A DNA stretch of 62,577 bases, taken from contig CAADGK010000077.1 of assembly GCA_900696515.1 (NCBI GenBank), positions 1-62,577 on the forward strand, given 5' to 3'. Shown here piece after piece: positions 9,931 to 60,207 of the stretch. The notes under the pieces are model-generated. The model saw nothing but the letters and a program-made list of their open reading frames with translations. It ran no database searches and had not been told where the DNA came from. This DNA comes from an uncultured Nitrosospira sp. (GTDB taxonomy: Bacteria; Nitrospirota; Nitrospiria; Nitrospirales; Nitrospiraceae). Positions within the stretch are counted from its first letter, which is position 1, and each line of letters opens with the position of its first letter. Position numbers and translations under genes: made by a program.

Positions 9931-11184
9931 CTATTTGCCCACCGGGACATTCTCTGTCCGCTTCACGATCTCGATCGGTTGGAAGACAGGATCTTGTGAT
10001 CCTTGAGACGATTCGGCTTCGACGCGCTGGAGGAATGAGGCAGGACCAGTCAGCGGAGCGTAATTCAAGCCGACTTCAACATCGAATGTCTTGGTATCTT
10101 TGGGCGTGGGGAAGGTAAAGGTTTCCTCTCTCGCCTCTTCAGGCTTCAACACTGTATCCTCGGCTACTTTGACAGCTTCAAAGTCGAAGATCGTCGGCTG
10201 TCCCTGGGCGTCCTGGTATGTCCGACCATAGACCCGCTTGTCTGAAAAGACGGTTTTGAGGTTTTTGCCCTTGATCTCCAAATTCAACACCACCGACGCC
10301 CAGGCCGGATGGGTCGCCGGCAAGTTGTGCGGGACGAGACTTTGCACCTTGACCGTCACGGTCGTTTTGTCGCCATCGACTTTCGTCTGCACGGCTAACT
10401 TCGCCGCCTCCTGGCGAAGCTTGCCGAGACGCCCTGGGAAACTATGGTTCGCGATGGTCCGCTTCTTTTCCCCATTGGCTGATTCGCCTACTTGTTGCGG
10501 CATGTGGCAGGTCTGACATTCCTTACCCGACTTCACGGCCCGACTCTGGTCCCAATTCCCCAGCAAGTCATTGCTCTTCCCCAGATTCGCCGCCGACGGC
10601 ACCGACTGATGACAGTTCAAGCAGAGATCGGACTTCTGGAACAGACTCGATTCCATCGACTGATGGGCCAAATTCTGCACAAAGTCTTTGTAGGGTCCGT
10701 AGAGTGTTTTTCCGCCGACCTCATACTTCGGCTCGGGAGGATGCTTCGCACGATCCACGTGCTTGATCAAATGGCACTGGCTGCAGGCCACACCGTCCAA
10801 CGAGGGATCGCCCCCTTTGGCTTGATCCACAAACAGTTGTGCATGTTCGGAAAACTCCCGCACATGCGGCGCATGGCATCGGAAACACAGCGCCTGATCT
10901 TTTCCCCCAGGCGACTTCAGATACGCATCCAAGGCGGTACGAAACGCCGGAGAATGGATGGACTTTGATAGAGGCGACGTTTCCCACTCTTCGTACACCC
11001 GTTCGTGACAGCGTTTACATTTATTGGAATGGGGGAAGGTCTTCTCGATCAAGGACTGGCTTTGGACTGTTTGCGCCTGCACCGGGTGGATTGCCCCGAC
11101 CGGCATGAATGCAATGCAGACCATCAGCGAGACACTGAGCCCGATCACCTGCCTACCCTGCCCTCGTCCCATCGGTGCCGCCAT
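9931..11184 (-). CDS. Pentaheme c-type cytochrome (c554-like), second of a tandem pair
   Basis: 417 aa with a signal peptide (cleavage after about residue 37). Five heme c attachment sites: CKRCH 56-60, CFRCH 100-104, CSQCH 134-138, CLNCH 188-192, CQTCH 223-227, all in the first 230 residues. They are followed by a heme-free beta-rich domain of about 190 residues. Heme spacing and the YGPYKDFVQNLAH segment match the cytochrome c554/multiheme family. It is periplasmic and presumably an electron carrier. It begins one base after the stop of the homologous gene upstream, so the two are an operon and a duplication. Partner and redox role are inferred from the NXR-associated neighbourhood. Confidence 0.9.
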   Translation of the reverse strand: MAAPMGRGQGRQVIGLSVSLMVCIAFMPVGAIHPVQAQTVQSQSLIEKTFPHSNKCKRCHERVYEEWETSPLSKSIHSPAFRTALDAYLKSPGGKDQALCFRCHAPHVREFSEHAQLFVDQAKGGDPSLDGVACSQCHLIKHVDRAKHPPEPKYEVGGKTLYGPYKDFVQNLAHQSMESSLFQKSDLCLNCHQSVPSAANLGKSNDLLGNWDQSRAVKSGKECQTCHMPQQVGESANGEKKRTIANHSFPGRLGKLRQEAAKLAVQTKVDGDKTTVTVKVQSLVPHNLPATHPAWASVVLNLEIKGKNLKTVFSDKRVYGRTYQDAQGQPTIFDFEAVKVAEDTVLKPEEAREETFTFPTPKDTKTFDVEVGLNYAPLTGPASFLQRVEAESSQGSQDPVFQPIEIVKRTENVPVGK

Positions 11185-11185
11185 G

Positions 11186-12526
11186 TCAGGAAAGCACCTT
11201 CACACGGTAGGTCAGGAAATGCCGTTGTGTATATTCCTGCACGATGTTCTTCGCCTCGTCTCGCGCGGCATCGGTCGCCAAGGTGGCCAGATATCTCTCC
11301 AGCAGAGTAGGCGCAGGGATGGGAATCAACGCATAGCTCAAAACGGCTTCGATCGACGCTGCAGCCTTTCCCTCAGGAAGCGTCAATACGAACGGCACCT
11401 TCCTCGTATTCCCACCCTTAATGAAGGGATCCGGAATGGGACCACGGAGAAGCTGGTCGTAGGATAATCCGAACTGCTGCGTCTCTTCCGCCAAGGTCTG
11501 CCCTTTTGCATCCTTTGCCGTGACGGTCAGGAAGAACTGTTTGAGCACTGGATCGCCATCGGGAAAGCCGTGTGGCAGGCTGCCGACCTTCACAAGAGTT
11601 CTTCCTTCCACGGTCGCGCCGGTCTTCGTCACTTCCAGATCAATGCGTGGCATCCATTCGGCCTGCACGTTCCGGTTCTTGAGCATCGTCCCGGCGACAA
11701 CGACCCCGCGAAACCAATGGCGGCCGATGGATCGGGTCATGGCGCCACGCCGTGACGTCGAGCTCCCGGTTGAGGGCTCCATATGGCAATCCTGACAGAT
11801 CGTCCCTTCGAGGATTTCACCGGGCAGATTCTTTTGCGTGACATCTTTCACTTTATCGAAGTGGCAGGAGGCACAAAAGCTGGCCTCTCGAAACTGCGTC
11901 GACTGCACGGCAGGATGGACGAGGTTCTCCTCCGGATTGGCATAGGGGCCAAAGAGGGTTCGGCCAGGCTGCAGCGTAAACATCGGCGGCGAGGATGCAT
12001 GCCTATCCATCCCCGCCATCAAATGGCATGCCGCACAGCCGATGCCTTCCACCCCAGATTTTCCACTCAGGACTTGGCCGGCGATCTTCTCGGCATGTTC
12101 AGGGAACACCGTCACGGCAGGCGCATGGCACGACAGACATCGGCGCTGCTCATCCGCGGTTGGATTCGTCTCTTTCCAGAGGCCGAGGACCGTTCGAAAG
12201 ACCGGTGAAGTCAACGATGTCCCGTGCAAGAGCGCCGCATCGACACGACCAAACGTCTTCAAATCAGGCGTCTGCTCTCTAACACCCTTCCATTCTTCGT
12301 AATGCCGCTCATGGCACTGCTTGCAGTCCTCCGACCGGATGAAGATCTTTTCAATTTCCGCTACCCAATCACTGGACACCTGCTCGTTCGTGCCTTCCGC
12401 CATCACCTGACCATCATACAAACCGCTCGGCAGACTAAGCAGGATGATGAGCGACAGGAGACACACCACCGCAGCAATTCGTTCCAACCACAATCTCCCG
12501 CCGCCTCCACTCGCCTTACCCTTCAC
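11186..12526 (-). CDS. Pentaheme c-type cytochrome (c554-like), first of a tandem pair
   Basis: 446 aa. An N-terminal hydrophobic segment (about residues 14-36) acts as signal or anchor. Five heme sites occur with the same order and spacing as its neighbour: CKQCH 68-72, CLSCH 130-134, CAACH 164-168, CASCH 218-222, CQDCH 244-248. A beta-rich C-terminal domain follows. Shared LFGPYANPEENLVHPA and GVEGIGCAACH segments show it is a paralogue of the next gene. The apparent GTG start (12526) sits in G/A-rich repetitive sequence, so the true start could be a few codons later. Likely a periplasmic electron-transfer protein. Confidence 0.88.
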   Translation of the reverse strand: MKGKASGGGGRLWLERIAAVVCLLSLIILLSLPSGLYDGQVMAEGTNEQVSSDWVAEIEKIFIRSEDCKQCHERHYEEWKGVREQTPDLKTFGRVDAALLHGTSLTSPVFRTVLGLWKETNPTADEQRRCLSCHAPAVTVFPEHAEKIAGQVLSGKSGVEGIGCAACHLMAGMDRHASSPPMFTLQPGRTLFGPYANPEENLVHPAVQSTQFREASFCASCHFDKVKDVTQKNLPGEILEGTICQDCHMEPSTGSSTSRRGAMTRSIGRHWFRGVVVAGTMLKNRNVQAEWMPRIDLEVTKTGATVEGRTLVKVGSLPHGFPDGDPVLKQFFLTVTAKDAKGQTLAEETQQFGLSYDQLLRGPIPDPFIKGGNTRKVPFVLTLPEGKAAASIEAVLSYALIPIPAPTLLERYLATLATDAARDEAKNIVQEYTQRHFLTYRVKVLS

Positions 12527-48496: not shown

Positions 48497-48530
48497 AAAT
48501 AAAAAAGGGGGTGGGTTACCCCACCCCCTT
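48497..48530 (-). terminator. Rho-independent terminator of the bd-like oxidase/cytochrome operon
   Basis: On the minus strand, GGGGGTGGGG pairs with CCCACCCCC around TAA, then TTTTTTATTTT. A textbook terminator 35 bases after the stop of the cytochrome-NxrC-like fusion gene. Confidence 0.93.
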
Positions 48531-48564
48531 CACGCTGACAACCTTGCACGGATTTCAAATGAAA

Positions 48565-50337
48565 CTACAGCGTCTTCCCTTTTTTCTTATTCGCACGGCG
48601 GGTCAAAACCCAGCCCTCCAGGAGAACCACACCGACTGCGATGACGACCGGATAAATGTACGTTTCCTGTGGAACCGGTGGATTCATGAAGGTGTAGTAG
48701 AAGGCCGACACGGCCATCTTTCGCCCTGCATCGCCATTATGACCATCCCAGGCAAAGAAGACCGTCGGAATATACTGGCCCACCTCAAAGAAGGTATCCT
48801 CATCGTAATCCTGATCCTTCTTATTTCCCACGGGCCGCTGAATCATGACGTACCATCTGCCATTCTTCCACTCCGCCTTCAGGAGCTTCATGGCCTCTTC
48901 GTAATTATCACGCTCTTCAAAGTCCTTATCCCAGCCCGTCCCTTTGAAGGCACGAAGGGATCCGTCTGCTTCCCACTTCACAATGTCCATCGGGAATTGT
49001 TCGTTCGTACCGAACAAGTACCGCGGCTTGATCGGAGCCGGAAGTTCTTTCCACTTGACGGCGGTTTCAATGGCAATCGCATCATTGTAGACCGCATAGT
49101 TATTCTGCTGAGCTGCGATGGATCCCTCTTCTCCGGTCTTGGGATCCTGTTCCTTGATATCGATATTGACCTGCGTAGGAGCCCAGGGGAGCTTTCCCTC
49201 GGCCACGCTCTTCGTTCGGTCATCCCACTCAAGCAGATAGACAATGTGCTTATCGTTGTAGAGCGAGCGCACCCAAATATCATCAAGCCGATTCACAAAG
49301 TTCCTCGGCTTGTGGGTAATCTGTCCACCCATCGCCACGTATCGTTTTGGAGCCTTTTTCCATGCTTCATGTTCAAGATCAGTCGGGATTTCCCCTTCGA
49401 CCATATCTGACGGAATGACGAAATTGATTTTCGGTTTATCAGTCAGAGGATCGATTGGCAACGGATTGCCCAGCGAATCCCGTTCGCAAAGCGAATTGAC
49501 GAAGTTGGCAATATCCCACCGTTCATCAACAGTCGTGTTGTCTGCAAATGAAGGCATCGGTGTCCCGTTGACACCTGTCGAGAAAGTCCGAAAAATATTG
49601 CTTACATTGTAGGGATCCTGACGGCTGCCACGGAAGTTCCAACACTTGTGCCAATTGGCTGGCTGGATGGAGAAACCCCAGTCGTCCTTCAGATTGAAGG
49701 CGTTCCCGTCACCCCGACCTTCCATCCCATGACATTCCACGCACTTTTTCTCGACGATTAACTCGCCGCCACGCTTCCTACTTTCATCAGTGGCTGGTTT
49801 TGGTTTCAAATCAGCCAACTGCAGCACTGTCTGAGACTCGGACTGCTTATCGGTGAATTTTCGATCTTTAACAAGCTGGGTCGTCACAAACGAGAGGACT
49901 TGCAGCCGCTGCTCCTCGCTCAGGATACCTTCCCACGGAGGCATCGCGGAACCGGGGAGACCGTGTGTCACTGTTTCAAAGAGATCGTTTTGACCAGGAA
50001 TCGGCTTCTTGGCGTCAAACAACGGCAACTCGCCGCTGGCAGTATGCCGAATCTTAAATGTACCCTGATTGAAATTGCGCGGACGAGGCCAGAGACGATC
50101 AGCACCAGGTCCGTCACCGGCTCCATCTACCCCGTGACACCACACACACTTGGTAAAATAGACTCGCTTCCCTGCTTCAATCATTTCCGCCGAAGGTTCG
50201 GCTGCAAGCTCACCTTTTTTGAAGCCTTCAGGCATTCCTTGCGCTGAAACCGGCGAATATCCCGCAGTAGATACTAACACCACTCCGAAGGCTGCAGCCG
50301 CGATGATCCCGGCCTTCTGAGTCATACTGTCCATCAT
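48565..50337 (-). CDS. Diheme cytochrome c fused to an NxrC-like heme-b domain, membrane anchored
   Basis: 590 aa from the ATG at 50337 (GAGG 7 bases upstream). The signal peptide ends at VSAQG (about residue 34). Two cytochrome c domains: CVWCH 64-68 with distal Met in SAMPPW (132), and CVECH 199-203 with distal Met in GTPMPSF (261). Residues 310-555 form a type II DMSO-reductase gamma-subunit domain with probable ligands Met450 (EQFPMDIVKWEADG) and Lys540 (DAGRKMAVSAFYY). A C-terminal helix (562-580) anchors it. One chain could therefore pass electrons through heme b and two hemes c. Last gene of the bd-like oxidase operon. Confidence 0.9.
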   Translation of the reverse strand: MMDSMTQKAGIIAAAAFGVVLVSTAGYSPVSAQGMPEGFKKGELAAEPSAEMIEAGKRVYFTKCVWCHGVDGAGDGPGADRLWPRPRNFNQGTFKIRHTASGELPLFDAKKPIPGQNDLFETVTHGLPGSAMPPWEGILSEEQRLQVLSFVTTQLVKDRKFTDKQSESQTVLQLADLKPKPATDESRKRGGELIVEKKCVECHGMEGRGDGNAFNLKDDWGFSIQPANWHKCWNFRGSRQDPYNVSNIFRTFSTGVNGTPMPSFADNTTVDERWDIANFVNSLCERDSLGNPLPIDPLTDKPKINFVIPSDMVEGEIPTDLEHEAWKKAPKRYVAMGGQITHKPRNFVNRLDDIWVRSLYNDKHIVYLLEWDDRTKSVAEGKLPWAPTQVNIDIKEQDPKTGEEGSIAAQQNNYAVYNDAIAIETAVKWKELPAPIKPRYLFGTNEQFPMDIVKWEADGSLRAFKGTGWDKDFEERDNYEEAMKLLKAEWKNGRWYVMIQRPVGNKKDQDYDEDTFFEVGQYIPTVFFAWDGHNGDAGRKMAVSAFYYTFMNPPVPQETYIYPVVIAVGVVLLEGWVLTRRANKKKGKTL

Positions 50338-50393
50338 GTTTGGCCTCATAATCTTCATTATGTTTGGTTTGGCATTATCAAGCGATATGGCGA

Positions 50394-51431
50394 CTAATCC
50401 CAAGTCCGCGGATAGTAGCCGGTGTGCCAATATTCAAACAAAACGACTTTCCAAATTTCATCCACGGTCAAGTGTTGTTCCCATGGGGGCATGACTGAAG
50501 CCCAAGGGAATCCTTCGTTAGGCAAGCCGATACCACCCTTCGAGACGCGCCAGAAGATAAAGGTTTCTTGCAGCTGTGCGATTGTACCAGGATCGGTAAA
50601 GTTTGCCGGAATCGGATTGAAAGCAAAGGCATGGAGCCCTCTGCCATTCAAGTTATCTCCGTGGCAGAAATGGCAGTTTTGGAAGAAAATCTCTCCACCC
50701 TCTCTGACGTACTTCAGATAACCTTGGTTTTTTTCATCCCAGGGATTGGCATTTGGTTTCATCAAACGCCCCATTCCCTGCTCCACGATATTGGCGTTAG
50801 AAAACTCCTGGTCGTACTTACCTTCAGGATTAACCCGATATGGGTTCTGGGAAGTCTGAAGCGTATAGGTCTTCCCATGCACCTTTGTGCTGGCAGGGGG
50901 CGCAGGATGTACCGTCCGAAGCTCAATAGGCTCTTCGGATTTCGGCATCATGGCATTGAATGAAAATCCCCCAATAAGAATTGGAATAAGTACGAGGTAC
51001 GCATATCTGAGGAGCCTGTTCATTCCCGTCTGGGCATCAAGGACATTCATGATCGGCTGCTTAAATTTCTTCCAATCCTCTTCATTGGCAGACACCCACA
51101 TGAACACGGTGACAAGTCCCACCGTTCCATACATTGCGCGCACGCTGAAAGGAATTGGAGGATAGACGCGATATTTGAGATAGACCATCAAAAATATCCA
51201 GAAGCCGATCCCCTGCCAAAACCTCGGGAGAGCCATCCCCATCGCACTCATCATATAGCTCAGCCCGGTAAAACCTATCACATAGCATGCCACTTCAAGC
51301 AGCAACTGGATCGGCATGTACCCTTCGACTAACCGCACGGTATTGGAGGGAACAACGTCAAAAATCATTCCACCCAACAGGAGCAACCCCGCTACTCCTA
51401 TCAAGGCACCAAGAGACATCAATGCTTTCAT
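50394..51431 (-). CDS. Membrane-bound monoheme cytochrome c
   Basis: 345 aa from the ATG at 51431 (AAAGGGAG upstream). Five membrane helices in the first 160 residues (about 6-24, 40-65, 70-88, 100-115, 142-160). A periplasmic cytochrome c domain follows with CHFCH at 253-257 and a distal Met in ASVMPPWEQHL. It ends with WHTGYYPRTW. The membrane part matches no family I recognise. It lies between two other c-type cytochrome genes downstream of the bd-like oxidase and should be part of the same electron-transfer complex. Confidence 0.88.
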   Translation of the reverse strand: MKALMSLGALIGVAGLLLLGGMIFDVVPSNTVRLVEGYMPIQLLLEVACYVIGFTGLSYMMSAMGMALPRFWQGIGFWIFLMVYLKYRVYPPIPFSVRAMYGTVGLVTVFMWVSANEEDWKKFKQPIMNVLDAQTGMNRLLRYAYLVLIPILIGGFSFNAMMPKSEEPIELRTVHPAPPASTKVHGKTYTLQTSQNPYRVNPEGKYDQEFSNANIVEQGMGRLMKPNANPWDEKNQGYLKYVREGGEIFFQNCHFCHGDNLNGRGLHAFAFNPIPANFTDPGTIAQLQETFIFWRVSKGGIGLPNEGFPWASVMPPWEQHLTVDEIWKVVLFEYWHTGYYPRTWD

Positions 51432-51474
51432 CGGCAAACTCCCTTTACTCTCCGCATGACAGACAACCGGGATC

Positions 51475-52779
51475 CTAGGAAACCTTTGGTGGCGGCGCTC
51501 CGGTTTTCACTTGCGACAAGTAGTCTACGATTTTCTTTAAGGCTCCGGCGCTTAATTTCTGGCCAAATATGGCCGGCATTGTCTTATCCGGGAATGGCTT
51601 TACGACATAGGCGCTCGGATCAACGATGGACTCCATAATATATTCAGCAGCTGATTTTGCCGTGCCCTTGTAGGCTGGATCCTTAATACGCTGCGGGGCC
51701 GTCGTCCCCTCTTCAAGCTTCGGGCCAATTGTCCCCGTGGCACCTGGGATACCAGGGATGGTATGGCACGACACACACTGAGCCTTGGCAAAAATTTGAT
51801 CAACAGGCTCTGAACCATCTGCCAGCAGTGACGTAGCTCCTGCGGGCTTATCATCCGCCTGCTTGGGTCGGTCTGCTTCAGGAACGAACTTTTCGTACGA
51901 CTTCACGAGTTCATCGAACGATGGAGGTTCGACACCCTCACGTGCATACATCCATGTGTCAACCGCCGCAAGCTCTGCGAGACTGAGAGATATCGGTGGC
52001 TTATGGATCGATGGCATCGGGCTTTCTTTATCGTTTGTGCCCTTTACTCCATAGCCGGCAACAACATAGCAACTAGGACAGGCGTGTGATTCTGCGATAT
52101 ATTCCTGCACAGTTTCAGCAGTGCCCGAACCAGGGAATGCTTCTTTGACCGAATACTCGCGCTTCGACGGATTACCCTTAGAATACTTGGGATCCTCTAA
52201 GCGCTCCTTACGAGTCGGCAAGCCTAACAAGTTCGGCGCTCGCTCGCCGAGCATCCCTGCATGGAACGCATGGCAAAGCGGGCATTGCCCCTTACCGATC
52301 GCACCTTGCTCTTTATTCTTTCCGACGCCGCCAAAGATAATTTCTTCACCCTTGTCAGCCAACTGCTGAGTGGACATCGTCTCCCATGTAACCTTCTCCT
52401 CTACCGGCGGAAAGCCGCCTTCCACTTGGGGAAGCCAGTTCCCATAACCGGAAAGAAACGCGGCCACGAAGAACATCATGCCACCGATCTTCAGGAGGGC
52501 GCTAAGGTTGGTGAAGTACAGCGCCATAATAAAGGTTGTCACCGTGATCATCACCAATGAGACGGGAAGCAACCGGCTTTCGCCATAGAAGTTAGTCTTG
52601 TAATTGGCGATCGCGATAAAGAGAAGGAAGCAGGATATAATCCCAATGAACGTCTTAAATACTGCGCGCTTCTTCGCAGCAGGGTCGCTGATACTTACTT
52701 GAAAATAAACCAGCAGACCCGCAAGGATGGCCAGCGCCATCCAACCCATCGACAGTGCTTCTGCAATCAAATTACCCAA
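51475..52779 (-). CDS. Membrane-bound diheme cytochrome c
   Basis: 434 aa, TTG start with AGGAGG 8 bases upstream. Four helices (about 9-29, 41-60, 70-92, 95-115) precede two tandem cytochrome c domains: CPLCH 166-170 with Met in SPMPSIHK, and CVSCH 335-339 with Met in KTMPAIFG. A third pair, CPSCY (234-238), is not a heme site: it occupies the place of DPSAY in the second domain, so it is an extra CxxC that may form a disulfide or bind a metal. Downstream of the bd-like oxidase gene in the same operon. Confidence 0.9.
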   Translation of the reverse strand: MGNLIAEALSMGWMALAILAGLLVYFQVSISDPAAKKRAVFKTFIGIISCFLLFIAIANYKTNFYGESRLLPVSLVMITVTTFIMALYFTNLSALLKIGGMMFFVAAFLSGYGNWLPQVEGGFPPVEEKVTWETMSTQQLADKGEEIIFGGVGKNKEQGAIGKGQCPLCHAFHAGMLGERAPNLLGLPTRKERLEDPKYSKGNPSKREYSVKEAFPGSGTAETVQEYIAESHACPSCYVVAGYGVKGTNDKESPMPSIHKPPISLSLAELAAVDTWMYAREGVEPPSFDELVKSYEKFVPEADRPKQADDKPAGATSLLADGSEPVDQIFAKAQCVSCHTIPGIPGATGTIGPKLEEGTTAPQRIKDPAYKGTAKSAAEYIMESIVDPSAYVVKPFPDKTMPAIFGQKLSAGALKKIVDYLSQVKTGAPPPKVS

Positions 52780-52861
52780 GGTCGTGACCTCCTACAGCTA
52801 CAACAGCGGCGAGAAGATATCCCCACCAGTCCGCTGAGCCGACTATCAAAGAAGACACAGG

Positions 52862-54778
52862 TTAATGACTGGGCGCCGGCTGCGGAACACTACCAGGGAT
52901 CCCGGCTTTGGATTCAACCGGAACCTTCTTCGCCGTCAAGCTACCCAACCAGAACACAAAGAGAATGGTAATCCAGAAAAACAACACATTGGCTGAAATC
53001 ATATTGGCCGCGAATCCTACCGTATGGGTATAGGCCCAAGGGGAATTGTCGCGCATGATTTCATTGACATGCCAAAAGAGCCGGACTGAGGAGCGAATAT
53101 AGCCCATCAATCCCATCATCCAGGTAAACGCGGTCGCCAACATGATGAGCGCGTATTGCGATCGAGCGGAAATCTTCCCCCACTCAATCGGCCCCATTTG
53201 CTTGGCGCCCTTCATCATGAAGCTGTTCAGGGCAAACATGAAGAAGAGACAAGACAAGGTGGTCGCGACCTGAGGAACCGACAGACCCACCCGGACGTTT
53301 GCCGGAATATAATATCCGTACACGGCGAGGAATATAATGTTGAAATACGCACAACCGAAGAACACGCCCATAAAGATGTTACCGAACCTCGCCCAAGATA
53401 CAGTTGAGACTTTATTGCCTCGCATATACCAGACGAAGCTCAACACCGTGGTTGTAATAATGACGTTAATGCCTCCGTTTTTAGCAGACATAACCCCATA
53501 GTTACCCAACACCGGATGCTGCTGACCTCCCATGGCCTTCAGCTCGGCCGGGGTCATCACCATCGTGTGCGGAGTGATGAAAACCATATAGCCGCAGGCA
53601 AGCAAGAACACCAAGTACTTGATGTATCGCTGATACTTCTCTGCCCCACGCATACGACCCATGGCCTGCCAGAGGTAGTAATTGGTACTCAAGAAGAGGA
53701 TCCCGATCATGGTGGCCTGAATAATGAACAACCAAGCAAGCAGCCCACCCATCAGCGTGATACCCATCTGCTGACGATAGGCATAGACCTCGCGCATGAG
53801 CCAATATCCGGCAAATGGCAATGGAATCAGAAATGCCACGCCCAGTGCCATCGCGATGTAACCCATCCAGTCATAATGAGCTCGGTCTTCATCCGTCTTT
53901 GAGGCCAAGAACTTATACGCAGCATAGGCCGCGACGACACCGCCGCCGAACGCCATGTTCCCCAGGATTCGGTGAAGATTGAGCGGATTCCACAAAGCTG
54001 TATGAATCACGTGCCAAATATTTCCCAGATAGCGCCCCTGCTCATCGACGCCGGCGGGCGACATCATGAAACCAATCCAGGAATTCGCCAGGAACATGAG
54101 CAACGTTCCAATGATGTTCAAAATAACCGACATGCTCAAGTGAATCCACTTGAGGAAGCCCTCCTTCATCTTGTCCCATCCATAATAGTAGATGTAGAGG
54201 GTTCCGCTCTCGGCCACAAACATCAAGGCATAGATGTGCATGACGGGACGGAAGATTCCTGACAGATAGGAGAAGAAGGCCGGATACAGAGTCAGGAAGG
54301 TAAAGATCAGAATACCTCCCAGAATAGCCGTGAGGGAGTAAGCAGTAAGACTGATCTTAATAAAGTCATACGCTAGTTGATCATAGCGCTTCGCGAGCGC
54401 TTTATCCTTCGTCACGACCCCCATAAACTCGATGATCATGCAGAAAATCGGGACGGCCAATACGAAGCTGCCGTAATAGAGGTGCTGCTGGTTCGCAAAC
54501 CAGAGCAACACGCGACTTTCAAAGTTATACCTCGGATAGTCCTTGACGCCATCCGTCGTCTTTGGAGCGGGAGCACCGGACACGATGCCTTCGGTCTTAT
54601 AATAGACATCCCGACCCTTTTCGACTTTATCCCCGTCCTTCTTTGCCGCATCGCCCGCATGAGTTTCTTCACCGATGGCCAGTGAAGGCAACGCCACGAC
54701 GACCGGAAGCAGAAGGAGGCCGACCATCATGCAGAGCGCCACGATCGAAAATATGCGCTTGCCGACTAAAAGGCCCAT
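52862..54778 (-). CDS. Cytochrome bd-like oxidase, large subunit (paralogue 1)
   Basis: 638 aa. The signal or first helix is followed by about 14 membrane helices. The N-terminal half is CydA-like: NQQHLYYGSF (His99, heme ligand candidate) and SPAGVDEQGRYLGNIWHVIH. Further His candidates are His181 (RPVMHIYALMF), His213, His256/259 and His269 (NLHRILGN), then PHTMVM, QQHPVLGNYGVMSAKNG, LFWHVNEIM and a His in AYTHTVG. Much longer than CydA and lacks the CydA Q-loop, as described for the Nitrospira bd-like putative terminal oxidases. It probably takes electrons from cytochrome c rather than quinol; that remains a hypothesis. Confidence 0.88.
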   Translation of the reverse strand: MGLLVGKRIFSIVALCMMVGLLLLPVVVALPSLAIGEETHAGDAAKKDGDKVEKGRDVYYKTEGIVSGAPAPKTTDGVKDYPRYNFESRVLLWFANQQHLYYGSFVLAVPIFCMIIEFMGVVTKDKALAKRYDQLAYDFIKISLTAYSLTAILGGILIFTFLTLYPAFFSYLSGIFRPVMHIYALMFVAESGTLYIYYYGWDKMKEGFLKWIHLSMSVILNIIGTLLMFLANSWIGFMMSPAGVDEQGRYLGNIWHVIHTALWNPLNLHRILGNMAFGGGVVAAYAAYKFLASKTDEDRAHYDWMGYIAMALGVAFLIPLPFAGYWLMREVYAYRQQMGITLMGGLLAWLFIIQATMIGILFLSTNYYLWQAMGRMRGAEKYQRYIKYLVFLLACGYMVFITPHTMVMTPAELKAMGGQQHPVLGNYGVMSAKNGGINVIITTTVLSFVWYMRGNKVSTVSWARFGNIFMGVFFGCAYFNIIFLAVYGYYIPANVRVGLSVPQVATTLSCLFFMFALNSFMMKGAKQMGPIEWGKISARSQYALIMLATAFTWMMGLMGYIRSSVRLFWHVNEIMRDNSPWAYTHTVGFAANMISANVLFFWITILFVFWLGSLTAKKVPVESKAGIPGSVPQPAPSH

Positions 54779-54847
54779 GGAATACCTCCTTAATACCCTA
54801 CGTTAAATGTATGATTTTCAAATACCCGACGACACCTTCAGGAGGGC

Positions 54848-54979
54848 TCAGTTTTTGAAGAGATACCAAAAGTCTAGCCCCTGCATATCCATGAGGTAGT
54901 GGTCAACCAACACAAAATAACCAACGGTAATAATAAGAGAAACAACAAGTGCTATGACTGGATTGTTAAGCGCGCTCAT
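54848..54979 (-). CDS. 43-aa single-helix membrane protein upstream of the bd-like oxidase
   Basis: Starts at ATG 54979 with AGAGGAAG about 8 bases upstream; stop TGA at 54850-54848. One hydrophobic helix (VIALVVSLIITVGYFVLV, residues 8-25) is followed by a short polar tail with DHYLMDMQGLDFWYLFKN. It resembles in size and layout the small subunits of terminal oxidases (CydX, CcoQ/CoxM-like), although the sequence is not recognisably homologous. It is 69 bases ahead of the large subunit on the same strand, so it is likely a small oxidase subunit or assembly factor. Confidence 0.7.
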   Translation of the reverse strand: MSALNNPVIALVVSLIITVGYFVLVDHYLMDMQGLDFWYLFKN

Positions 54980-55065
54980 CTTCTTCTTCCTCTCTTCTGT
55001 CGACCAATGCCATCAATCAGTTAAGCCGGACAGACTCCCCACACAAGACAAACTCTACCCACAAC

Positions 55066-55194
55066 TCAGCAGGGGCACTGAATACCGGCAAACCAATAGA
55101 AAAACCATAATCCGACAGCACAAGTAATGTAAAAAATCATCTTCCCGATTTTTACTTTAAGCTCGCTATCAGGGGTAGCTGTTGCCATCGCCAT
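55066..55194 (-). CDS. 42-aa single-helix membrane protein ending in CPC
   Basis: Starts at ATG 55194 (or 55188), preceded by CGGGAG; stop TGA at 55068-55066. Polar N-terminus (ATPDSELKVKIGK), one helix (MIFYITCAVGLWFFYWFAG), and a C-terminus QCPC. The terminal Cys-Pro-Cys is unusual and could bind copper or heme-related thiols on the outer face. First of two small genes directly ahead of the bd-like oxidase large subunit. I know of no family; the good ribosome binding site and operon position argue that it is real. Confidence 0.7.
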   Translation of the reverse strand: MAMATATPDSELKVKIGKMIFYITCAVGLWFFYWFAGIQCPC

Positions 55195-55250: not shown

Positions 55251-55279
55251 TTGACAGGCATTCGGCCCTGTGTTATCAA
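55251..55279 (+). promoter_or_regulatory. Promoter for the 34-aa plus-strand gene
   Basis: -35 TTGACA (55251-55256, consensus), 17-base spacer, -10 TATCAA (55274-55279). Predicted start of transcription is near 55286, leaving a leader of about 30 bases with AAAGAGG before the GTG at 55318. Confidence 0.6.
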
Positions 55280-55317: not shown

Positions 55318-55422
55318 GTGTCGAAAAACTCAAAAGTGTTTGACATTATAGTTTTGGCCGGAATGGTTGTCAACATCATTTTGGCCGTGTTTTTGATCCT
55401 CTACTACTTTGATTTCCTGTAA
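55318..55422 (+). CDS. 34-aa single-helix membrane protein on the opposite strand
   Basis: GTG start at 55318, 5 bases after AAAGAGG, with a consensus -35 promoter upstream. 34 residues, mostly one hydrophobic helix (FDIIVLAGMVVNIILAVFLI, then LYYFDFL). It is the only plus-strand gene in this 20-kb stretch, and its last 47 bases lie inside the 3' end of the formylglycine-enzyme-like gene on the other strand. It could be a small oxidase subunit, or its RNA could act as antisense to the neighbour. Family unknown. Confidence 0.5.
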   Translation: MSKNSKVFDIIVLAGMVVNIILAVFLILYYFDFL

Positions 55423-56323
55423 ATTCTTCCGGTTTTTTCTTCTCTTCCTCCAGCGTACCGGCAGTCGAATTTGCACAGCGGAATCCGATGGTTTCATCCC
55501 GAAAATCTTGCATCATCTTGCTTCGGCTGGTAATCCGAACATCGCCACCTGCCGTCGTATATCCTCCCCCGCGAAGCACCCGATAGGTGCCATACTCGGG
55601 ACTCGGCGGATTGTGATCCGGCGAACTCTTATAGTAAGTCTCGTCGTACCAATCAGCCACCCACTCCATGACATTGCCGGCACCATCCATCACTCCATAG
55701 GGGCTCTTGTCGCTCTGGAAGGTGCCGACACGCGCCGAAGCTTCATAACCATCCTGCACGCGAGCCCAATTGGCCCCATCAGGCAGCTCTTTGTCTCCCC
55801 ATGGCCAGAGCCTTCCATCCGTACCACGCATGGCCTTTTCCCACTCGGCTTCGGTCGGAAGCCGCTTGCCCTTCCAACGACAGTACCCATCCGCGTCTTC
55901 CCATGACACATAGACGATGGGCTGATTGATTCCACGTACTTTGGCCCCGCTCTTGGCATAGCGTGAAGGGAGTCCTGGCTTTCGATGCCCCGTGGCTACG
56001 ACAAACTGCTGATACTGGTAGTTCGTCACCTCGTACCGATCAATCCCAAACGCATCCAGATGGATGGTTCGTTGCGGACGCTCATCGAAGCCTCCGCCCT
56101 CAGTTCCACGAATGAACGGCCCCGCAGGAATCGTGACCATCTCGCCAGAAAGAGGTTCCTCTCCGGGAGCACTCTCCGCCATCGACACCACTTCAGCAGC
56201 GGTATCAGACGCCGGCTTCTCATACGGCGTGACCGTGGTCCCTCGCATAATGGCGACGATGGGCATCGCCGCGCATGCCAGGACCACAAACAGGAAAACC
56301 AGTTTGAATTTTGACTCGAGCAT
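55376..56323 (-). CDS. Membrane-anchored formylglycine-generating-enzyme-fold protein (2)
   Basis: 315 aa. An N-terminal anchor helix (8-25) is followed by a periplasmic SUMF1/FGE-sulfatase domain: MVTIPAGPFIRGTEGGGFDE, FGIDRYEVTNYQYQQF, PIVYVSWEDADGYCRWKGKR, RLPTEAEWEKAMRG, YGVMDGAGNVMEWVADWY, RVLRGGGY and ETIGFRCA. The two active-site Cys of true sulfatase activators are not evident, so it is probably a binding or structural variant. It lies 13 bases after a paralogue and upstream of the small oxidase-associated genes. Its 3' end overlaps the plus-strand 34-aa gene. Confidence 0.87.
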   Translation of the reverse strand: MLESKFKLVFLFVVLACAAMPIVAIMRGTTVTPYEKPASDTAAEVVSMAESAPGEEPLSGEMVTIPAGPFIRGTEGGGFDERPQRTIHLDAFGIDRYEVTNYQYQQFVVATGHRKPGLPSRYAKSGAKVRGINQPIVYVSWEDADGYCRWKGKRLPTEAEWEKAMRGTDGRLWPWGDKELPDGANWARVQDGYEASARVGTFQSDKSPYGVMDGAGNVMEWVADWYDETYYKSSPDHNPPSPEYGTYRVLRGGGYTTAGGDVRITSRSKMMQDFRDETIGFRCANSTAGTLEEEKKKPEEFTGNQSSRGSKTRPK

Positions 56324-56336
56324 GCCGCCCTATCCC

Positions 56337-57248
56337 TCAGCTTCCACCTGAAGCCGGATCCAACTCGCTCGCGCAACGCACACCGATCGTGACATCAGTA
56401 CGCCAATGTTTTGCCGCAAACCGCTTGGACAATCTTGCGTGATGCTCCGTCTCTCTCCAAGAGCCTCCCCGCACGACTTTCAAATCTGCATTGTCAGGCC
56501 CCTTGGGATCACGAAACGGAGATTTCTTGTAGTAATGTTCGTCGTAGGAATCCTCAACCCATTCCGCCACATTTCCCGTCATGTCGTGAAGGCCATAGGG
56601 ACTGCGTCCGGCCTCGAAGGATCCGGGAGGTGCCAGATACTTATATCCATCCTCCGTCCCGTCGACATTGGCCGCATTGACGACGAACTTGTCTCCCCAG
56701 GGATACCTCCGCTTACTCTCACCTCGACCGGCTTTCTCCCATTCCGCTTCCGTGGGCAAACGCTTCCCCGCCCACTTGCAGTAAGCCGCCGCCTCATCCC
56801 ACGAGACGCTCATCGCCGCAAACTCGGGCTTCAAGATCTTTGATTGATCGTCGTCAAACACTTCGATTTTCGGCATCCCCCGCTTCGTCATCTTGGCAAA
56901 CCGCTGATATTCTTGCTGCGTCACCTCATTCCGATCGATATAGAACCCTTTCAAGTAGACTTGGTGCTCGGGCGCCTCATCAGGATCCCCATCATTACTT
57001 CCCATCGTAAAAGGCCCTTCCGGAACTTGCACCATTTCCCGCCCTTCGTCTCCGATCTTGGTCTTATACATGGAGAAATCCTGAGCAGGCAGACTACTGG
57101 CCGTCGGTCGCGCTTCGGACTTCACTGAAGCTGCAAGCTGTTTCATCTGCTTGGCCTTGTAGGATTCGTAGGCCAACAGACCGATCATGAGAAAGAACGA
57201 CGCAAACACAAAGATAATGGAGCCGACTAAAACACCTTTATTTTCCAC
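56337..57248 (-). CDS. Membrane-anchored formylglycine-generating-enzyme-fold protein (1)
   Basis: 303 aa from GTG at 57248 (GAGG 5 bases upstream). An anchor helix (about 8-28, VGSIIFVFASFFLMIGLLAY) is followed by an FGE-sulfatase domain with MVQVPEGPFTMGSNDGDPDE, FYIDRNEVTQQEYQRF, AMSVSWDEAAAYCKWAGKRL, PTEAEWEKAGRG, YGLHDMTGNVAEWVEDSYDE, VVRGGSW and VTIGVRCA. Paralogue of the next gene. A tandem pair of membrane-bound FGE-fold proteins beside a terminal oxidase is uncommon; they may help assemble or stabilise the periplasmic side of the complex. Confidence 0.87.
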   Translation of the reverse strand: MENKGVLVGSIIFVFASFFLMIGLLAYESYKAKQMKQLAASVKSEARPTASSLPAQDFSMYKTKIGDEGREMVQVPEGPFTMGSNDGDPDEAPEHQVYLKGFYIDRNEVTQQEYQRFAKMTKRGMPKIEVFDDDQSKILKPEFAAMSVSWDEAAAYCKWAGKRLPTEAEWEKAGRGESKRRYPWGDKFVVNAANVDGTEDGYKYLAPPGSFEAGRSPYGLHDMTGNVAEWVEDSYDEHYYKKSPFRDPKGPDNADLKVVRGGSWRETEHHARLSKRFAAKHWRTDVTIGVRCASELDPASGGS

Positions 57249-57278
57249 ACATACCTCGACAATCAATACCCCTGAACC

Positions 57279-58332: not shown

Positions 58333-60207
58333 CTATGTTTCTTGCGATGGGATCGGAGTCAGCAATGGCGACTCTTTCTCACTCGCATCCTCAACCATCA
58401 CCGGCTGCTGTCCCCGTTCGCACATCCAGAACAGCGCGAGAACCGCCGCCCAGAACACCACCATATTCAGTGTCACCATTTTAGTCGCATACTGAAGATC
58501 AGGGGTGAAGGCCCAGGGCGAGACATCGGCCATCAATTCGCTGACGTGCCAGGATAGCCTCCCTGAGGAACGGATGTACCCCATCAACCCCATCACCCAA
58601 CTGAACGATGCCGCCAATCCAAACAGGCCCACCATACCCCGTAGCGGAATCTTCCCCCACTGAATCGGCCCATGCAGCACCGCACGCCTCAGCATGAGGC
58701 GATTGATCACCACTCCGACCAGAATAACCGTGAACGTGGTGAAAGCCTGCGGAGCGGACAGACCGACGCGAATTTTCGCCGGCAAATAGAATCCATAGAT
58801 CGATAGCCAAATGATGTTCACTGCACCGACCACATACAGCACTGTGATGAGGATGTTTCCGGTCTTGATCCAGGAGATGGTCATGGTGCGATTCGCGCGG
58901 CGATAATAAAGGAAACTCAGCGCGGTCACGAGGATCAGGATATTGACCGCTCCGTTCTTCGCCGACATGACTCCATAGTTGCCGATGACCGGATGTTGCG
59001 CGCCTCCCATTGCCTTGGCCTCACTGGCAGACGTCAGCAGCGTATGCGGCGTCAACCAAATGAAGAGCGCCAGCATCAACACACCCAGAAGGATTTGGTA
59101 ATACGGCTGATATCGCTCTCCTCCCTTGATCCGCGCCATGCTCTGCCACAGATAGTAATTGATCCCCAAAAACAAGACACCGATCAAGAGGGCCTGCACC
59201 ACAAAAAGCCAGGTGAGCAGTCCGCCCATCATCGTCACCCCCATGGTCTGACGAAACACGAAGACCGACTTCATCAACCAGTACCCGGCGAACGGCATGG
59301 GAATGAGGGCACAGACCGTGACGAACAGGAACACATAGCCGACCCAATCAAAATAGGCACGCTCCTCGTCGGTCTTGCTGGTAAAAAATCGGTAACAGGC
59401 ATAGGCAAGCACCACCGCTCCGCCGGACATCATATCCGCCAGGAAGCGATGGACGTTCAGAGGATTCCAGAGCGCGGAGTGCAATAGATGCCACGCGTTT
59501 CCGAGAAACCGCCCCTGCGCATCGACCCCGGCGGGCGACATCATGAACGCAGACCAGGCGTTGGCCATCATCAGCAATGCGGTCCCCACAATATTGGTCA
59601 GAATCCCGATCGCGGCGTGAACCCATTTCATGCCACGGTCTGTCATCCGGTTCCAACCGTAGTAGTAGACGATCAGCAGCAGCGCTTCTCCGAAAAATAC
59701 GGCGGCGTAGGCAGGCATGAATCCTTTGAATGTCCCGCCCATATACTTCATGAAACTCGGATAGAGCGTGATGAACATCGTCAACATCAAACTACCGATC
59801 AGTGCCGTAACCGACATAGCCAGGACCGCCACCTTCGCAAGATCCCTTGCCAAGCCATCATAACGAAGGGCCAAGGCCGGCTTTTTCGTGATCAACCCCA
59901 AGAACTCAAGTAAGGCGCAAAACAACGGCAAGGCGAGAACGAATCCGCCGAAATAGGTATGTTGCTGCGTCACGAACCACACCAGCAACCGACTATCCAG
60001 TGAACCGACTTGAGGATAGACCGTTTCCTGAGGAGTGGGAGCCGCCGGCCCCTGCGGAATTCCCTCGGTCCCGAAATACACGTCCGTGGATGAGTCGGCA
60101 AAGGACAGATCAGTGCCACTCCCCAGAAAGCCAAGGGCGATTAAGGCGAATCCGATACACATCACCACGCGAAACAGAAAACTGTTCATCCTGAATTCTT
60201 GGCCCAT
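58333..60207 (-). CDS. Cytochrome bd-like oxidase, large subunit (paralogue 2)
   Basis: 624 aa, about 14 membrane helices, aligning over its whole length with paralogue 1. Conserved: TQQHTYFGGF (His83), KWVHAAIG, NAWHLLHSALWNPLNVHR, PHTLLTS, AQHPVIGNYGVMSAKNGA and LSWHVSEL. Two His of paralogue 1 are replaced by Pro: FMPAYAAVFF (Pro165) against VMHIYALMFV, and PWAFTPDLQ against PWAYTHTVG. It may therefore bind a different set of hemes or metals, or be a non-oxidase partner. Starts 4 bases after the upstream gene, whose last codons provide the Shine-Dalgarno GGGGTAGG. Confidence 0.87.
   Translation of the reverse strand: MGQEFRMNSFLFRVVMCIGFALIALGFLGSGTDLSFADSSTDVYFGTEGIPQGPAAPTPQETVYPQVGSLDSRLLVWFVTQQHTYFGGFVLALPLFCALLEFLGLITKKPALALRYDGLARDLAKVAVLAMSVTALIGSLMLTMFITLYPSFMKYMGGTFKGFMPAYAAVFFGEALLLIVYYYGWNRMTDRGMKWVHAAIGILTNIVGTALLMMANAWSAFMMSPAGVDAQGRFLGNAWHLLHSALWNPLNVHRFLADMMSGGAVVLAYACYRFFTSKTDEERAYFDWVGYVFLFVTVCALIPMPFAGYWLMKSVFVFRQTMGVTMMGGLLTWLFVVQALLIGVLFLGINYYLWQSMARIKGGERYQPYYQILLGVLMLALFIWLTPHTLLTSASEAKAMGGAQHPVIGNYGVMSAKNGAVNILILVTALSFLYYRRANRTMTISWIKTGNILITVLYVVGAVNIIWLSIYGFYLPAKIRVGLSAPQAFTTFTVILVGVVINRLMLRRAVLHGPIQWGKIPLRGMVGLFGLAASFSWVMGLMGYIRSSGRLSWHVSELMADVSPWAFTPDLQYATKMVTLNMVVFWAAVLALFWMCERGQQPVMVEDASEKESPLLTPIPSQET

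Follow-up and report, generated by a model that had tools for sequence, protein, structure and literature searches.

A conserved bd-like operon of Nitrospirota with three predicted single-helix proteins, probably encoding a general rather than a nitrite-specific respiratory complex

What does a homologue of the cytochrome bd subunit CydA do in an operon that carries three c-type cytochrome genes, and is the complex it would form specific to nitrite oxidation? The operon lies on contig C77, whose entire 62,577 nucleotides constitute the window analysed here and which belongs to a Nitrospirales genome of 4.59 Mb (99.99% complete), probably of the genus Nitrospira to judge by gene content and synteny. 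Nitrospira are the most widespread nitrite oxidisers, and what is at stake is the electron route from periplasmic donors to O2 or back to quinone; no solved structure or assay for this enzyme family was found in the literature. A preliminary description of the window had proposed a nitrite-to-oxygen module made of a bd-like oxidase, three cytochromes c and two tiny helix proteins, lacking a CydB-type subunit and ending at a hairpin. All six open reading frames (ORFs) of that description were found, on the minus strand from 55194 down to 48565, as was the hairpin (12-pair stem and T-run at 48531-48504), and no CydB-like ORF was detected within 48.5-55.2 kb in the ORF list or by Pfam. Our analysis suggests that the operon probably encodes one membrane-bound, cytochrome-c-fed, bd-like respiratory complex with three single-helix accessory proteins that is general to Nitrospirota. 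The large-gene core is already known; what appears new is the small proteins, their spread beyond nitrite oxidisers and a promoter that lies within a coding sequence. The operon comprises the following features.

55066..55194, minus strand: small42, 42 amino acids (aa), first gene of the operon; predicted single-helix protein with the core GKxIFYxTCAxxxWFFYWFxGIQCPC
54848..54979, minus strand: small43, 43 aa; predicted single-helix protein with the core YFxxxDxxLMDxQGLDYWYLF
52862..54778, minus strand: bd-like CydA homologue, 638 aa; matches PF01654, without Q-loop and without CydB partner
51475..52779, minus strand: membrane-anchored diheme cytochrome c, 434 aa; two CXXCH motifs (Pfam), four N-terminal transmembrane (TM)-like stretches by hydropathy
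50394..51437, minus strand: membrane-anchored monoheme cytochrome c, 347 aa; one CXXCH motif (Pfam), N-terminal TM-like stretches by hydropathy
48565..50430, minus strand: alt_NxrC, 621 aa as the longest ORF; two CXXCH motifs, a DMSO-reductase-gamma-like heme-b domain and a C-terminal TM-like stretch
48504..48531, minus strand: terminator-like hairpin at the operon end; 12-pair stem with 8 G-C pairs, followed by a T-run (terminator-like sites overall are no more frequent than in shuffled sequence)

Both tiny ORFs at the head of the operon are genes. The preliminary description had named their conservation upstream of the oxidase as a check, and they proved conserved: in a survey of 198 Nitrospirota genomes, 56 of them Nitrospirales, small42 and small43 stand in tandem in 54 of the 56. 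Of the two exceptions, G091 has a contig that starts within the bd-like gene, and G181 is without a detectable orthologue of it. The order FGE-sulfatase-domain gene, small42, small43, bd-like gene is kept in 18 of 19 bd-like loci examined, and in the nineteenth (L033) small42 was recovered later by a wider profile; the profile matches at L033 (4e-7) and L184 (1e-7) lie outside the profile training set. All nine class-level relatives (families f3-f9) carry the bd-like orthologue at 59-67% identity with the tandem pair directly ahead, and the pair also precedes the orthologue in four more distant Nitrospirota, three of f11 and one of f16. In all, over 60 orthologues were located. Codon comparison over 23-29 distinct sequences for each small ORF gave ratios of nonsynonymous to synonymous change (pN/pS) of 0.115 for small42, 0.239 for small43 and 0.069 for ORF34, a third small ORF described below; purifying selection acts on all three. 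Shine-Dalgarno sequences were seen by eye ahead of the 42-, 43- and 638-aa genes. No Pfam or NCBIfam family was found for small42 or small43. The C-terminal CPC of small42, invariant in Nitrospirales and absent outside, is predicted to face the periplasm and may be a metal or disulfide site. An orphan extra copy of small42 with a longer N-terminus occurs at L041 8676-8921 (genome G143), with no operon genes nearby.

Very probably a third conserved small gene stands alongside the pair. The two tiny ORFs of the preliminary description are both genes, but this one, on the opposite strand, had been overlooked. Its sequence is VSKNSKVFDIIVLAGMVVNIILAVFLILYYFDFL, and it overlaps one of two promoters that face each other.

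55318..55422, plus strand: ORF34, 34 aa, predicted single-helix protein; divergent, GTG start, with AGAGGA before the GTG (by eye)
55345..55373, minus strand: operon promoter TTGACA-17-TATAAT; sigma-70, 12/12 consensus, antisense inside ORF34
55251..55279, plus strand: promoter-like site of ORF34, TTGACA-17-TATCAA; 10/12, facing the operon promoter

The 54 Nitrospirales genomes (of 56) that have the small pair also have ORF34, nearly always at 85% identity or above, as do all nine class-level relatives, with weaker matches beyond. Its position varies between lineages. In f11 (L197, L199, L200) and f16 (L198) it lies on the same strand as the first operon gene, directly before the pair, and the order to the contig limits is ORF34, small42, small43, bd-like, diheme c, monoheme c, alt_NxrC; in f17 it is located after alt_NxrC. 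The co-directional first position in f11 and f16 suggests that ORF34 was probably an operon member originally and was turned divergent in Nitrospirales.

Of 18 relatives, 16 have the operon promoter as a 12/12 site and two as an 11/12 site, and the chance expectation for such perfect sites in the stretch is ~0.0003. Within the hexamers, all four synonymous third positions of ORF34 are invariant among 28 distinct Nitrospirales sequences (0.29-1.0 outside them). Conservation of TTGACA/TATAAT as a promoter alone was considered and rejected: ORF34 is coding, and both constraints hold. The promoter-like site of ORF34 is conserved within the genus and scores 9-10/12 in most other Nitrospirales loci. 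Given this layout, transcription of the operon and of ORF34 would be expected to run head-on, with the 5' ends of the two transcripts overlapping. Could the small ORFs be chance frames whose conservation reflects regulatory DNA? The operon promoter does lie in ORF34, but the pN/pS values of 0.069 to 0.239 and genome G119, which keeps the ORF34 amino acids although its promoter lies elsewhere, leave this reading with a probability close to nil, and for practical purposes it is refuted.

To place the operon relative to nitrite oxidation, its distribution was compared with that of NxrA. A search with the NxrA of this genome (L191) gave homologues at 83-87% in the Nitrospirales genomes tested. It found no NxrA in the nine class-level relatives with operon and small pair, where the matches were weak and generic. 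Anammox genomes, reached via their 16S signature, mostly keep bd, c, c and alt_NxrC in order, in agreement with a report that a homologous set is conserved in Nitrospina and in the anammox bacterium Kuenenia (Luecker 2013, PMC3578206). A module specific to nitrite oxidoreductase (NXR) was rejected as a candidate, nine Nitrospiria genomes having the operon and no NxrA. The nitrite-to-oxygen label of the preliminary description is not supported. A dedicated module in which NXR is coupled to a terminal bd-like oxidase is very unlikely, despite the high transcription on nitrite in Nitrospira moscoviensis (Mundinger 2019, PMC6606698) and the NXR-gamma-like heme-b domain of alt_NxrC: the nine NxrA-free genomes carry operon and small pair, the anammox cluster comes without the small genes, and the oxidase proposed to be fed by nitrite is encoded by a paralogue on a different contig. 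Because all nine class-level genomes lack NxrA and anammox bacteria keep the large genes, the complex is probably a general one in Nitrospirota, independent of nitrite oxidation. On this distribution, the whole gene set would predate nitrite oxidation in the phylum. The NxrA-free distribution removes the complex from its nitrite-specific frame and suggests that the name alt_NxrC is misleading.

The bd-like protein itself retains part of the CydA core. The Pfam family Cyt_bd_oxida_I matches the 638-aa protein only in the N-terminal half, at residues 88-335 (2e-20), and a PDB sequence search returned one weak match, to cytochrome bd subunit I, over that same half. The Q-loop is missing: the Pfam match stops at profile position 241 of 418, and the alignment shows other sequence instead; the known quinol-binding residues are absent as well. 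We then compared 72 bd-like proteins, with positions taken from sequence alignment only and Escherichia coli numbering set via the PDB alignment of a canonical CydA, of which this genome has two elsewhere. The equivalent of His19 (His99 here) is present in 70 of 70, that of His186 (His269) in 72 of 72, and that of Glu107 (Glu190) is mostly kept. Met430 aligns with Met393 in 70 of 72, a pairing that comes from an 18-row alignment, the canonical rows being gapped there in the larger one. His570 is an invariant new residue beside the old GRQPW site. At the ligand positions, the window protein and a paralogue on contig C79 have identical residues, so that nothing at these positions marks the window protein as less fit for an oxidase than that paralogue.

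Two features upstream of the operon belong to its conserved surroundings.

55376..56323, minus strand: FGE-sulfatase-domain protein, immediately upstream of the small pair (Pfam, 2e-55)
58333..60207, minus strand: bdB, paralogous bd-like protein, 48% identical; no small pair

The genome holds four bd-like genes: the window gene, bdB, one on contig C79 followed by two cytochromes c and then a short alt_NxrC-like gene, and a fourth on contig C86. A tree made by a quick method, with some long branches, puts f11, f16 and f17 below the Nitrospiria sequences, and C79 and C86 on separate, deeper branches; bdB appears to be a duplicate that arose within Nitrospiria. The small pair is absent beside bdB, C79 and C86. 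That it is linked to one orthologue only, and to no other bd paralogue, counts in favour of a complex with its own small proteins. In place of a small pair, bdB is preceded by a 355-aa multi-TM protein (weak DUF4010), and the block p355-bdB-DUF3047-p119-FGE-FGE is syntenic across the Nitrospirales loci compared. In two f5 genomes (L185 4897-6819; L186 11192-13177) another bd-like paralogue is encoded divergently beside the operon.

The last gene of the operon, alt_NxrC, contains two cytochrome c domains and a C-terminal EB_dh heme-b domain (5e-9) by Pfam, and it scores under the family cut-off of TIGR03477. Hydropathy gives a TM-like stretch at each end, the C-terminal one at residues 592-610. 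Its diheme part matches PDB chain 6h5l_B, a 'conserved hypothetical cytochrome protein', with E 4e-40. The annotated starts of the 621- and 347-aa ORFs are probably over-extended, because Shine-Dalgarno sequences (by eye) favour later ATGs that give ~590 and 345 aa; the true alt_NxrC start is probably near 50340.

How could these proteins work together? In our model, the core would be a CydA homologue that has lost its quinol site and is fed by c-type hemes on the periplasmic side. The two-c/one-b alt_NxrC would be reduced by a dehydrogenase or electron carrier located outside the membrane. From alt_NxrC, electrons would pass via the membrane-anchored monoheme and diheme cytochromes c to the core b-heme (His269/Met430) and from there to a high-spin heme close to His99, which in aerobic members would most likely be the site of O2 reduction. 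The 42-, 43- and 34-aa proteins would be accessory subunits or assembly factors packed against the core. In Scalindua and Anammoxibacter (L146 8295-10853; L149 8087-10735), the bd-like ORF is fused to a C-terminal diheme cytochrome c (853 and 883 aa), which supports a single physical complex. The single complex, the direction of electron flow and the role of the small subunits are inferred; the genes, their conservation, selection, linkage, residue pattern and independence of NxrA are observed.

The electron acceptor is harder to assign. In seven of the nine class-level relatives, neither a heme-copper oxidase subunit nor a canonical CydA was found, and in G131 (f4, 96% complete) no CydA-family protein other than this orthologue was found. 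If the class-level relatives are aerobes, this complex or a close paralogue would have to be their O2 reductase. Several observations weigh against our interpretation of the operon as an oxidase complex with three accessory proteins. The large genes are kept in anammox bacteria, so O2 need not be the acceptor, and in Nitrospirales the proposed terminal oxidase is another paralogue. Two canonical residues are replaced in all 72 bd-like homologues, Glu99 by Tyr and Glu445 by Leu, Val, Ile or Met. The predicted structure of the bd-like protein (two window copies) had a pLDDT confidence score of 40 and was unusable. None of the 15 anammox loci showed a homologue of small42, small43 or ORF34; the core therefore does not need them everywhere. 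Finally, ORF34 lies on a separate contig in G157 and G185, and because it is unlinked there and divergent in Nitrospirales, it can be counted as a member with less confidence than the pair. O2 as acceptor is plausible, and on the sequence evidence we judge the case for and against it evenly balanced.

These same points bear on reverse electron transport, in which electrons from periplasmic hemes and proton motive force would reduce quinone with no reduction of O2. In its favour, anammox bacteria do not grow by O2 respiration and yet retain all four large genes, Glu99 and Glu445, the high-spin heme ligands of the canonical enzyme, have been lost, and quinone reduction was suggested for the anammox cluster (PMC3578206) and such transport for the homologous cluster of Nitrospina and anammox bacteria (PMC3578206, PMC6606698). 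We nevertheless consider this reading rather unlikely, since a protein without Q-loop and known quinol-binding residues would have to reduce quinone, since the residue pattern equals that of the C79 paralogue, a proposed terminal oxidase, and since seven of nine class-level relatives, assuming that they live aerobically, would be left without a heme-copper or canonical bd oxidase, G131 having this operon only. What the preliminary description called a cytochrome c-fed bd-family oxidase with its own small subunits thus stands as regards conservation, linkage and the missing Q-loop and CydB, with O2 as a plausible acceptor. Likewise, a bd-like gene of Nitrospira has indeed been proposed as terminal oxidase, NIDE0901/bd-like_2 (PMC6606698), but its counterpart here, assigned by neighbours, would be the C79 paralogue and not the window gene.

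It is unlikely, too, that the small proteins are real yet not stoichiometric subunits, acting instead as assembly, heme-insertion or regulatory factors or as partners of another membrane complex. Their absence from the anammox relatives, the unlinked ORF34 of two genomes, the orphan small42 and the conserved FGE-domain neighbours, which could be maturation factors, fit such a role. The pair, however, is linked to this orthologue and to no other bd paralogue, the small genes stand first in the operon, and proteins of such size are subunits in cytochrome bd (PMC4325964). The subunit list has so far been guessed from the large genes, and three conserved single-helix proteins make it concrete. A fuller version of the preferred reading can be put forward tentatively, its probability falling somewhat short of even: a bd-like oxygen reductase of ancient origin, fed by cytochrome c and made of seven subunits, three of them single-helix, which would predate nitrite oxidation in Nitrospirota and serve some lineages as their sole terminal oxidase. 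One of the subunit genes would have been reversed in Nitrospirales so that it carries the promoter of the rest in its coding sequence, with mutually opposed transcription.

Other genes of the window were noted in passing. Two consecutive FGE-sulfatase-domain proteins with N-terminal membrane anchors are encoded at 55376-57266 (minus strand). One or both FGE genes adjoin the operon throughout Nitrospirales and in most class-level relatives, and no FGE match was seen in the f11 and f16 loci; it is possible that these neighbours are maturation factors. An adjacent ORF pair with five CXXCH motifs each, at 9931-12526 (minus strand), is possibly a multiheme cytochrome pair.

Among known systems, the closest is the bd-like_3/alt_NxrC_2 cluster of N. 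moscoviensis, which contains the large genes, with another bd-like copy close by at a distance of a few genes (PMC6606698). The window operon shares with it the bd-like gene, the two cytochromes c, the diheme alt_NxrC with heme-b domain and the second bd-like copy nearby; alt_NxrC is described there with one TM helix, and the features that define the cluster are present here. The missing Q-loop also agrees with PMC3578206. The novelty claimed in the preliminary description accordingly holds for the small proteins, of which no mention was found in the excerpts of PMC6606698 and PMC3578206 (an earlier mention elsewhere is possible), but not for the large-gene cluster, already described in both. 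Both papers link the cluster with the oxidation of nitrite. The nine genomes without NxrA contradict that link, and the operon is probably better described as encoding a general respiratory complex whose small subunits had escaped notice. A related case is TO_1 of Candidatus Manganitrophaceae, Nitrospirota that oxidise manganese and lack genes for nitrification. TO_1 combines a bd-like protein with a cytochrome b on the periplasmic side and was proposed as terminal oxidase (PMC9040806); judged by its published description rather than by sequence comparison, TO_1 may be this operon.

The NIDE0901-type OR-N2/OR-N1 CydAA' systems, represented here by C79, share a homologous core, the order bd, c, c, alt_NxrC-like and the same ligand columns. 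They differ in forming a separate branch and in having shorter cytochromes and no small42, small43 or ORF34 beside them. As regards the OR-N type, the operon has no Q-loop and three c-type cytochrome genes, and cytochrome c would be a putative donor; as for the CydAA' arrangement, bdB lies nearby in Nitrospirales, but only one CydA homologue occurs in G131. Canonical cytochrome bd with CydX, CydY or CydZ (PMC4325964) resembles the operon in belonging to the CydA family by Pfam and in having small single-helix operon proteins. In contrast, the window operon is without CydB, Q-loop, Glu99 and Glu445, and cytochromes c would replace quinol. Unlike in CydX systems, the small genes stand at the 5' end of the operon, and the CydX motif YxxWxxGx15E/D is absent (by eye) from the three small families. 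By analogy, the small proteins may be comparable in role to CydX or CcoQ rather than homologues of CydX.

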